NCBI RefSeq assembly: GCF_012843435.1
Contig: NZ_JABAFC010000023.1
Location: forward strand, 1-58,004
Direction of reading: 5' to 3'
Source: Psychrobacillus sp. BL-248-WT-3
GTDB taxonomy: Bacteria > Bacillota > Bacilli > Bacillales_A > Planococcaceae
DNA: 58,004 bases
Every line of letters starts with the position of its first letter. The stretch's first letter is position 1. This document shows positions 21,670-39,209 of the stretch, in pieces. A program made the position numbers and the translations under genes. The notes beneath the pieces were generated by a model, which was given only the letters and a program-made list of their open reading frames with translations, did not search any database and was not told the DNA's origin.

Positions 21670-21767
21670 GACTAGCTTCAGTTGTAGTTAGCGTTCTAAA
21701 AAAGGCTATTAGAATCTTATACTTACTAACAGACAACGATATAATATCCATAATAAAATACTTTGAA

Positions 21768-21893
21768 TGTTTTCTAGGGTTCCGCAACTGTCAATGTTGG
21801 TCTGGACCGAGAGAAAACTCACAGCATTGCTGTGTCACGGAAGGATAAAAGCCTGGGAGAAACTGTTTAATAGTTTCTCTCAGGCTTTTTTTT
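21768..21893 (+). ncRNA. Guanidine-I (ykkC) riboswitch with terminator platform
   Basis: The aptamer core is recognisable: CTAGGGTTCCGC, GGTCTGGACCGAGAGAAAA, a CACAGC/GCTGTG hairpin, CACGGAAGGATAAAAGCC and CTGGGAGA. The terminator stem AGCCTGGGAGAAACT (21850-21864) / AGTTTCTCTCAGGCT (21872-21886) with a T tract overlaps the aptamer 3' end, so guanidinium binding should prevent termination. A TATAAT at 21740-21745 is the likely -10. Controls the SMR pair downstream, a standard target. Confidence 0.9.
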
Positions 21894-21923: not shown

Positions 21924-22265
21924 ATGGATAAAGCATGGATTAAAGTGTTCATTGCTGCAGTATTTGAGGTTTTTTGGGTTATTGGATTAAAGCATGCAGA
22001 CGATTTTTGGACTTGGGCTGGAACAGTTATTGCTATCTTTATCAGTTTCTATTTAATGATTATGGCTGGTCGAGAACTTCCCGTAGGTACGGTTTATGCT
22101 GTTTTCGTTGGTATAGGTACAGCAGGAACTGTTTTTTCTGAGATTCTATTCTTTGACGAACCATTTCAAGTAGAAAAAGTACTTTTAATCGTACTATTAC
22201 TTGCAGGAGTAATTGGGTTGAAATTAATTACAAAGGAAAAAGTTCAGGAAAGGAATGAATCTTAA
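21924..22265 (+). CDS. ykkC: SMR-family guanidinium exporter subunit (YkkC type)
   Basis: 113 aa, four transmembrane helices. The conserved membrane Glu is in [13 protein letters not shown] (about residue 14), the Gdx/SugE-type context. With its partner it is expected to export guanidinium in exchange for protons, as riboswitch-controlled YkkCD. GGAGG precedes ATG. The stop overlaps the next start by one base (TAATG). Confidence 0.88.
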
Positions 22266-24339: not shown

Positions 24340-25299
24340 ATGACTCATCGATATGAAAATGCCAAACTAAAAATATTTACTCTTAATTCGAATAAGAAAT
24401 TAGCAGAAGAAATTGCAAAAGAGGTTGGAGTTCCGCTAGGGAAAAGTACTGTAACAAGATTTAGCGATGGCGAAGTCCAAATTAATATCGAAGAGAGCAT
24501 ACGTGGATGTGATGTATTTATCGTTCAATCCACTTCAGGTCCTGTAAACGAAAATATAATGGAATTATTAATCATGTTAGATGCAGTTAAACGTGCTTCT
24601 GCTCGTACCGTAAGTGTTGTATTACCTTATTACGGATATGCTCGACAAGACAGAAAAGCTCGTGCTCGTGAACCGATCACAGCTAAGCTAGTAGCTAACC
24701 TGCTAACTTCTGCTGGAGCAACTCGCGCAATTGTTTTAGACTTGCATGCACCACAAATCCAAGGTTTCTTCGATATTCCAATCGATCATTTAGTAGCTGT
24801 GCCTATCTTATCTGACTACTTCTTAACGAAAAACCTAGATCCTTCTCAAATTGTTATTGTTTCACCTGACCATGGTGGAGTTACTCGTGCACGTAAAATG
24901 GCAGACCGTTTGAAAGCGCCAATTGCTATTATTGATAAACGACGTCCACGCCCTAATGTTGCAGAAGTAATGAACATAGTTGGTAATGTAGAAGGAAAAA
25001 CGGCAATTTTAATCGACGATATTATTGATACTGCGGGAACTATATCGATTGCTGCTGCGGCCTTAATGGAAAGCGGTGCAAAAGAAGTGTATGCATGTTG
25101 TACACACCCAGTGCTATCGGGGCCAGCAATTGAACGTATAGATAACTCTGTTATTAAAGAATTGGTTATTACAAACTCTATTCAATTACCAGAAGATAAG
25201 CACTCACCAAAAATTAAAGAACTATCAGTTGCAAAATTATTAGGTGATGCAATTGTTCGTGTATTTGAAGAAAAATCTGTAAGTACTTTGTTTGATTAA
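24340..25299 (+). CDS. prs: Ribose-phosphate pyrophosphokinase
   Basis: 319 aa. Class I PRPP synthase with [30 protein letters not shown], the flexible-loop RARK region and the PRPP/ribose-5-P site [12 protein letters not shown]. Supplies PRPP for nucleotides, His and Trp and for PurR signalling. AGGAGGA precedes ATG. The ctc leader hairpin follows directly. Confidence 0.97.
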
Positions 25300-25309
25300 T
25301 CTCATAGAT

Positions 25310-25335
25310 GTTTGAATCATCCTCCCGAAGGGTAT
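25310..25335 (+). promoter_or_regulatory. Sigma-B promoter of ctc
   Basis: GTTTGA (25310-25315), 14-bp spacer, GGGTAT (25330-25335), matching the sigma-B consensus GTTTAA / GGGTAT. The expected start (about 25342) lies after the left arm of the hairpin at 25315-25328. ctc is a classical sigma-B gene in B. subtilis. Confidence 0.8.
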
Positions 25336-25378
25336 CTTATCTTTAGTTACCAATTACATCGGGAGGATGATTTTATTT
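25315..25378 (+). promoter_or_regulatory. RBS-sequestering hairpin / possible terminator before ctc
   Basis: A perfect 14-bp inverted repeat: AATCATCCTCCCGA (25315-25328) and TCGGGAGGATGATT (25359-25372), followed by TTTTATTT. The right arm contains the ctc ribosome binding site GGGAGG. Inside the 30-nt loop, GGTA/TACC can pair further. In a transcript coming from prs, the hairpin would hide the site or terminate; a sigma-B transcript starting in the loop lacks the left arm. Confidence 0.75.
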
Positions 25379-25993
25379 ATGGCTACAATTATTAAAGCAC
25401 AAAAGAGAGAACATAAAAACAATACCAAGCTAAGAAATAGTGGGTACATACCGGCAGTTGTATATGGTTTTGAAACAGAGTCTCAACCAATTGCGGTAGA
25501 TGAAAAAGATTTAATAAAAACATTACGTGAAGTTGGTAGAAATGGCGTAATGAAAATTGATGTAGAAGGTCAATCTCTAAACGTTGTATTGAATGATTAT
25601 CAAATGAATATATTAAAGGCTCAAATGATTCATGCGGACTTTCTCGCGATTAATATGAAGGAAGAATTAGAAGTAAGTGTAACAGTTAACACAACTGGAA
25701 CTTCTGTAGGTGTCTCAGAGGGTGGATTACTTCAACAGCCAAACAGAGAACTTACTGTTATTGTAAAACCTTCCGATATTCCAGATTCTATAGAAGTAGA
25801 TGTAACTAATATCGCTATCGGTGATACGCTAACAGTTGGAGACGTTCGTGAAAAGGTAGATTATAAAATAGTCGAAGATGACGACTATACTTTAGTAACT
25901 GTATCTGCTCCAAGAGTTGAGACAGAATCGGATACTGAAACAGAAGCTGAGGCAGATGCCGAAGGAACAGAAGAAGCATCCTCAGAGGAATAA
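25379..25993 (+). CDS. ctc: Ribosomal protein bL25, long form (general stress protein Ctc)
   Basis: 204 aa: N-terminal L25 5S-rRNA-binding domain (IIKAQKRE, LRNSGYIPAVVYG), C-terminal TL5/CTC beta domain and an acidic Glu/Asp/Thr tail. It binds 5S rRNA and is stress-induced. ATG 25379 is 12 nt after the start of the GGGAGG; the in-frame ATG 25367 lies within the hairpin stem. Terminator at 26036. Confidence 0.93.
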   Translation: MATIIKAQKREHKNNTKLRNSGYIPAVVYGFETESQPIAVDEKDLIKTLREVGRNGVMKIDVEGQSLNVVLNDYQMNILKAQMIHADFLAINMKEELEVSVTVNTTGTSVGVSEGGLLQQPNRELTVIVKPSDIPDSIEVDVTNIAIGDTLTVGDVREKVDYKIVEDDDYTLVTVSAPRVETESDTETEAEADAEGTEEASSEE

Positions 25994-26035: not shown

Positions 26036-26073
26036 AAAGGCGAGAATGATGTTTAATCGACATTCTCGTCTTT
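26036..26073 (+). terminator. Intrinsic terminator after ctc
   Basis: AAAGGCGAGAATG (26036-26048) pairs along its length with CATTCTCGTCTTT (26061-26073), one G-U pair. Confidence 0.8.
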
Positions 26074-26228
26074 AGTTATGCACCGATACAATTATTAGTT
26101 TAGGAACTGGGTTCCATTCTTTTGCTTTAAAAGAAGGTGATGTTCCAAGTGAACAAACTGATTTATGGGCTTTACTCATCCCTCTTATGTTAAAATAAAA
26201 GAAATAAGGTTAAAAGGAATGGAAAGAA

Positions 26229-39056: not shown

Positions 39057-39128
39057 TGACCCCTACGGGATTCGAACCCGTGTTACCGCCGTGAAAGGGC
39101 GGTGTCTTAACCGCTTGACCAAGGGGCC
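39057..39128 (-). tRNA. tRNA-Glu (anticodon TTC)
   Basis: 72 nt on the minus strand, from GGCCCCTTGGTCAAG to CCCGTAGGGGTCA; CTTTCAC anticodon loop gives TTC; GGTTCGAATCC T-arm. CCA is not encoded. Confidence 0.95.
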
Positions 39129-39135
39129 GTATAAA

Positions 39136-39209
39136 TGGCGGCCGAGGGGATCGAACCCCCGACCTCACGGGTATGAACCGTACGCTCTAGCCAGCTGAGC
39201 TAGGCCGCC
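39136..39209 (-). tRNA. tRNA-Met (anticodon CAT, elongator type)
   Basis: 74 nt, minus strand, GGCGGCCTAGCTCAG at 5', 7-bp acceptor GGCGGCC/GGCCGCC, TTCATAC anticodon loop, GGTTCGATCCC T-arm. The acceptor differs from initiator tRNA (CGCGGGG) and from the Ile2 CAT tRNA, so elongator Met is most likely. In B. subtilis Met and Glu tRNAs also lie between yabR and spoIIE. Confidence 0.9.

Follow-up and report, generated by a model that had tools for sequence, protein, structure and literature searches.

The closest described systems come from Bacillus subtilis and from phage T4. In B. subtilis, according to McCormick 2021 as represented in PMC8073009, alternative promoters read by the stress sigma factor SigB give mRNA isoforms that are translated far more efficiently than the basal isoform made with SigA. 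In T4 (PMC3014915, PMC2988022), the long early transcripts of gene e (lysozyme), soc, 49 and I-TevI hide their ribosome-binding sites in a fold whose 5' strand is missing from the transcripts of late promoters, and in related phages the late promoter lies in the very DNA that encodes this 5' strand. In PMC9847131, ctc is listed with an exact SigB consensus and an N14 spacer. Here we describe the ctc leader of a Psychrobacillus genome, located in a window that comprises the whole stretch of DNA analysed (58,004 nucleotides), and compare it with ctc leaders across the Bacilli.

The gene order at this locus is prs, 10 nt, a SigB-type promoter, ctc and pth (26229), and the features described up to ctc lie on the + strand. 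The prs gene (24340-25299; ribose-phosphate diphosphokinase, NCBIfam NF002618, 511.6 bits, over cut-off) is followed after the 10-nt gap (25300-25309) by the promoter GTTTGA-N14-GGGTAT (25310-25335), with its -35 at 25310-25315, its -10 at 25330-25335 and a 14-nt spacer; spacing to the -10 predicts a transcription start at about 25342. The ctc gene (25379-25993; ribosomal protein bL25 / general stress protein Ctc, NF004133 with 219.7 bits and TIGR00731 with 152.5 bits, both over cut-off) starts at ATG 25379, where homologues align, 12 nt after its Shine-Dalgarno sequence (SD) GGGAGG (25361-25366), and an in-frame ATG at 25367 sits within the leader stem. An initial sequence-only reading had placed here a perfect 14-bp inverted repeat with the SD in its right arm and a SigB promoter straddling its left arm, and the coordinates agree: the arms (25315-25328 and 25359-25372) are 100% complementary over 14 nt, the SD lies in the right one, the left one takes in the last -35 base and all but the last of the 14 spacer bases, and the 30-nt loop contains the -10. 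Downstream of ctc, at about 26040-26075 (+), an inverted repeat GAGAATG..CATTCTC followed by TCTTTAG can be seen by eye; it is absent from the terminator-scan list and could be the end of the ctc transcript.

Perfect repeats alone are not rare, with seven in the window (arms of at least 13, loops of 3-60), and it is the coincidence of an arm with both the promoter spacer and the SD that is beyond chance. The RNA from 25310 to 25390 folds at -28.3 kcal/mol (z -4.9), a value equalled by none of 200 shuffles, and the spacer:SD duplex reaches -25.3 kcal/mol, where shuffled spacers average -8.1 (p 0.002, the lowest value that 500 shuffles allow).

Taken together, the sequence and the modelled folds make it likely that the ctc leader acts as a start-site-dependent translation switch, so that the initial reading appears well supported and correct in essence. 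A terminator scan of the 10-nt gap between prs and the promoter found no + strand terminator-like site, and the gap leaves no room for one; because of this, transcription of prs would be expected to read through into ctc. Such prs-derived transcripts would carry both the spacer and the SD, form a hairpin of at least 14 pairs and be poorly translated. Transcripts started by SigB at about nt 25342 would begin past the left arm, leaving the SD open for good translation. One stretch of DNA would then play two roles, promoter spacer and RNA anti-SD strand, ctc would be insulated from its housekeeping neighbour where a terminator between them is absent, and Ctc synthesis would probably depend mainly on transcripts from the stress promoter. 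In predictions on isolated leaders, the mean unpaired probability of the SD in the window is 0.00 in the read-through RNA, 0.83 in the RNA with the predicted SigB start and 0.29 in read-through RNA with a shuffled spacer; the corresponding values are 0.18, 0.72 and 0.51 for the genus and 0.27, 0.53 and 0.35 for 161 distinct leaders across the class, of which the 97 with no significant pairing hardly change their SD openness when the spacer is shuffled (0.33 vs 0.33). An RNA thermometer was also considered and rejected, as a helix of -25 kcal/mol would seem unlikely to melt at the temperatures of growth.

Within the genus, ctc is present in all 19 genomes, as is SigB over the curated cut-off, and the promoter is nearly invariant (GTTTGA in 19/19 leaders; GGGTAT in 17/19, with GGGTAA and GGGTAG in the remaining two). 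Lack of a conserved left arm in relatives had been named as one of two results that would speak against the switch, and what the genus shows is conservation of pairing: the letters of the spacer vary widely, and the spacer:SD duplex beats shuffled spacers (p<0.05) in 17 of the 19 leaders, or 14 of 16 once identical spacer/SD pairs are removed. The same shuffle test of the 19 genus leaders found no significant arm in L011 (p 0.27) and L018 (p 0.78), the latter with an SD predicted to be open in read-through RNA (0.93). Cognate spacer:SD pairs are also stronger than swapped ones (-14.5 vs -12.0, p 0.0005, 16 leaders), and pairing recurs in many other families.

Inspection of the alignment by eye shows two groups of species whose anti-SD stretches are offset by 3 nt with pairing kept. 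A MAFFT alignment of 17 genus leaders mixes these two arm registers and was divided by eye into groups of 11 and 6 rows, a procedure that favours structure; the 11-row group contains the non-pairing L018. In that group 77.9% of cells are paired, against 38.6-53.9% for slid partners, the covariation score is 0.287 against 0.196 (1/500 shuffles as high), and three pairs changed on both sides account for nine cells, a number reached by 3/500 shuffles. Counted as pairs, these three two-sided changes are not unusual (58/500 shuffles), nor are the extra pair types (12 vs 11.4; 225/500). RNAalifold recovers most of the same helix from the 11 rows, with a weak consensus of -4.4 kcal/mol, and adds a further helix between GTTT of the -35 and bases just before the AUG. 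The 6-row group gave no clear covariation (score 0.169, 26/500 shuffles, against 0.151 for the partner slid by -3; cells paired, 110/500).

The genus leaders also bear on the thought that the hairpin is simply an intrinsic terminator of prs, or an attenuator, whose overlap with the SD is incidental. The window itself lends this some colour, with ATTTTATT as the 8 nt after GGATG (6 T), and the scan lists no further terminator-like site between the two genes. However, the T-rich tail noted by the sequence-only reading, real as it is in the window, is not a feature of the genus: at least 5 T occur only in L001, L036 and L002 of the 19 leaders, L006 has 4 and the other 15 have 1 or 2. An intrinsic terminator or attenuator is characterised by a GC-rich stem, a short loop and a conserved U tract, a combination that the ctc hairpin, with its 30-nt loop, does not show. 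As the U tract is not conserved, we rejected termination as the main reading and regard it as improbable. Equally improbable is a blend in which SD sequestration is conserved and the U-rich tail causes some termination here and in the nearest relative; the tail does stand alongside conserved pairing in L001, L036 and L002, but the long loop counts against it. Thus, of the suggestion that read-through RNA would be silent or terminated, the sequence comparison favours the first half, and the second fares poorly, the U-rich tail not being conserved.

To return to the switch, its reach across the class was assessed with 239 leaders (131 assembled initially, with 28 and 80 more found by the class search), a part of the matches chosen for spread, with start codons and SDs picked by script. 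A promoter filter (score at least 9.5, -10 to start 35-80 nt) was passed by 177 of these, leaving 161 distinct leaders after identical spacer/SD pairs were dropped; L177 and L193, second copies of L123 and L126, were left out, and L031-L035 were considered by eye only and are uncounted. Spacer-SD pairing is significant at p<0.05 in 64 of the 161 and at p<0.01 in 41, the p-values of related genomes not being independent, while the shuffle test found no significant spacer pairing in 97. Families with at least one significant leader number 21/30 at p<0.05 and 14/30 at p<0.01. In a comparison with control regions, 68/161 leaders were significant for the spacer against 6, 7 and 17 of 161 for the controls, and when a single leader was drawn from each of 44 groups half were significant, against fractions of 0.045, 0.071 and 0.097 for the control regions.

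When the 161 leaders are scanned for complementarity to the SD, beginning 63 nt upstream of the -10 and ending at the SD, it is greatest in the spacer (mean -7.3 kcal/mol) and least in the transcribed leader (about -2.4). The best site reaches -10 kcal/mol or lower in 86 leaders, lying in the spacer in 58, upstream in 22 and downstream in six. Duplexes are weaker after spacers are exchanged between genomes, both in the genus and outside the host family (cognate -11.6 vs swapped -8.0, p 0.0005, 70 leaders), as well as in all 161, and the swap test found no cognate advantage within the genera g3 (p 0.94) or g7 (p 0.57) and a p of 0.11 in g11. Pairing is stronger on the mRNA strand than on its complement in 140/161 leaders and weaker in 20, with mean energies of -9.2 vs -6.9 and significance in 63/161 vs 51/161, a bias that is partly expected from purine-rich SDs, since U:G pairs can form on just one of the strands. 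Wobble polarity (65 vs 18) was tried as a further sign of the strand and rejected, as both polarities count as wobbles on one and the same strand.

These comparisons make it very improbable that the repeat is a DNA operator, a dyad bound by a repressor that covers the SigB promoter. The dyad is perfect and does overlap the promoter, but its arms change from species to species and shift by 3 nt, as a binding site would not; of the 706 helix pairs in significant leaders, 83 are G:U, which a DNA dyad would not hold, a count that arises partly by construction since the energy model allows G:U; and the mRNA strand pairs more strongly, again with the reservation about purine-rich SDs. That the complementarity is a functionless by-product of pyrimidine-rich spacers facing purine-rich SDs, as could be said of the 97 leaders that show nothing beyond composition, has a negligible chance of accounting for the whole in view of the composition-preserving spacer shuffles, the swap test and the flanking control regions.

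Pairing tracks both the prs-ctc distance and the presence of a terminator-like site between the two genes. Among the 149 of 161 leaders with a recognisable upstream prs end, pairing is commoner where the prs-ctc gap is below 20 nt (43/77) than at longer gaps (19/72), with significant pairing in 17/28 leaders at gaps below 10 nt, 26/49 at 10-19, 7/27 at 20-29, 3/10 at 30-59 and 9/35 at 60 nt or more. It is also rarer where the gap holds a terminator-like site (4/24, against 58/125 without one; Fisher p 0.007), and the trade-off with the gap holds across 39 groups (Spearman 0.37, p 0.019). The proposed insulation from the prs transcript thereby gains support from sequence comparison, the gaps being shorter where pairing exists. 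For example, among the eight distinct leaders of family f14, L171 and L175 (gaps 13 and 14) pair, the former with a promoter resembling that of B. subtilis ctc, and those not reaching 0.05 are L123, L174, L176 and L179 (gaps 69-216), L173 (no gap value) and L172 (gap 14).

This trade-off is a tendency and not a rule, because two genera combine short gaps with no significant pairing: no arm is significant in g3 (host family; 22 distinct leaders with a median gap of 12 nt) or in g2 (three leaders, median gap 5). Leaders of g3, e.g. L047-L058, share a recurrent spacer stretch, GTCGTCTG, with a possible weak wobble pairing to AGGTGAC that is not significant in the shuffle test. In g7, a search for an anti-SD arm just upstream of the -35 found 5/22 leaders at p<0.05 and a very strong arm in L086 only, where the anti-SD strand lies in that position and not in the spacer (duplex -24.2), with the same outcome from another position. 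In g14, also of the host family, 30 of 32 genomes have two ctc-like matches, one has three and one none, and four leaders (L267-L269, L278) show no clear SigB promoter.

The 70 leaders outside the host family were further sorted by the best SigB match of their genome, which is over the cut-off in 50, intermediate (E 1e-60 to 1e-76) in eight and no better than for other sporulation sigma factors (E 1e-42 to 1e-50) in 12, bearing in mind that in any single case a gene may be missing from a draft genome. Pairing is present in 29/50 leaders with SigB, 4/8 intermediate ones and 9/12 without SigB. The SigF consensus is GGNRANANTW. The -10 of the SigB-less leaders fits it better (mean 9.25/10 vs 8.08/10; Mann-Whitney p 5e-5, uncorrected for kinship), and SigF may read these promoters. 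The nested anti-SD arm is kept without a SigB over the cut-off in L126, L128, L135, L186, L204, L238, L259, L260 and L265, whose -10 agrees with 8 to 10 of the 10 consensus positions. We tentatively entertain, as a plausible though by no means secure idea, that the ctc promoter spacer is dual-coded across the class, for sigma geometry and for the anti-SD strand, and can outlive its sigma factor, with selection acting on the shielding of ctc from prs read-through whichever sigma is used and with terminators and spacer hairpins interchangeable. If so, in genomes without SigB the same geometry with a SigF-like -10, for expression in the forespore, would still pair with the SD.

Nested arms were also sought at other SigB-like sites of the same genome. 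A SigB-like pattern has 85 matches there, ctc included, and a control pattern 87; of 30 other SigB-like sites, ten have a usable downstream start and two reach p<0.05, with weak nested arms of -6.4 and -7.8, against -25.3 for ctc. An Rfam search of the whole window gave three matches at gathering score, none at the ctc leader, and in 25200-25500 at E up to 5 all seven matches are below gathering. Elsewhere in the window, a Guanidine-I riboswitch (RF00442, 83.1 bits) lies at 21763-21861 (+), just upstream of ORFs at 21924 and 22265 that by eye resemble transporters of the small multidrug-resistance type and may form a guanidine exporter pair, and two adjacent tRNA genes lie at 39057-39209 (-).

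The kept pairing, the sliding of the arm, and a hairpin that is rare with terminators and present without SigB together suggest selection against the translation of ctc from prs RNA. The spacers in promoters of SigB genes could then be under constraints that stem from RNA, and transcript counts may understate the induction of ctc by SigB.

The mechanism itself is not new, having been described in B. subtilis, for SigB genes, and in phage T4. As in the gene e leaders, an internal promoter lies in the DNA of the 5' strand, here with the left arm (25315-25328) as promoter spacer. Unlike ctc, the T4 genes use phage late promoters and gp55 and no host stress sigma factor, and their purpose is to time lysis or the production of homing endonucleases; with a bacterial ctc gene and a GTTT/GGGTAT promoter in place of a phage late promoter and a homologous gene, the relationship is one of analogy, not membership. 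In E. coli pyrC and pyrD, it is the choice of start nucleotide that decides whether an SD-burying hairpin forms, which differs from ctc in relying on one promoter and on sensing of nucleotide pools. The B. subtilis study reportedly established its inhibitory long-range structure by DMS probing and is said to include ctc among its genes. The layout here may resemble that system, with a SigB-type promoter (25310-25335), SigB in the genome and presumed read-through from prs, and in silico the long isoform folds over the ribosome-binding site and the short one cannot (SD 0.00 vs 0.83). Our work differs in covering another genus together with a class-wide comparison, and in that the inhibitory strand is the promoter spacer, tends to be preserved through compensatory change and tracks the prs-ctc gap. 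Among the literature matches listed, with subscription journals mostly beyond scope, titles and the starts of abstracts gave no description of such a switch for ctc. As far as we have seen, the class-wide use of the promoter spacer as an anti-SD strand and its trade-off with terminators are new, and they offer an evolutionary test of a mechanism otherwise known to us from one species.
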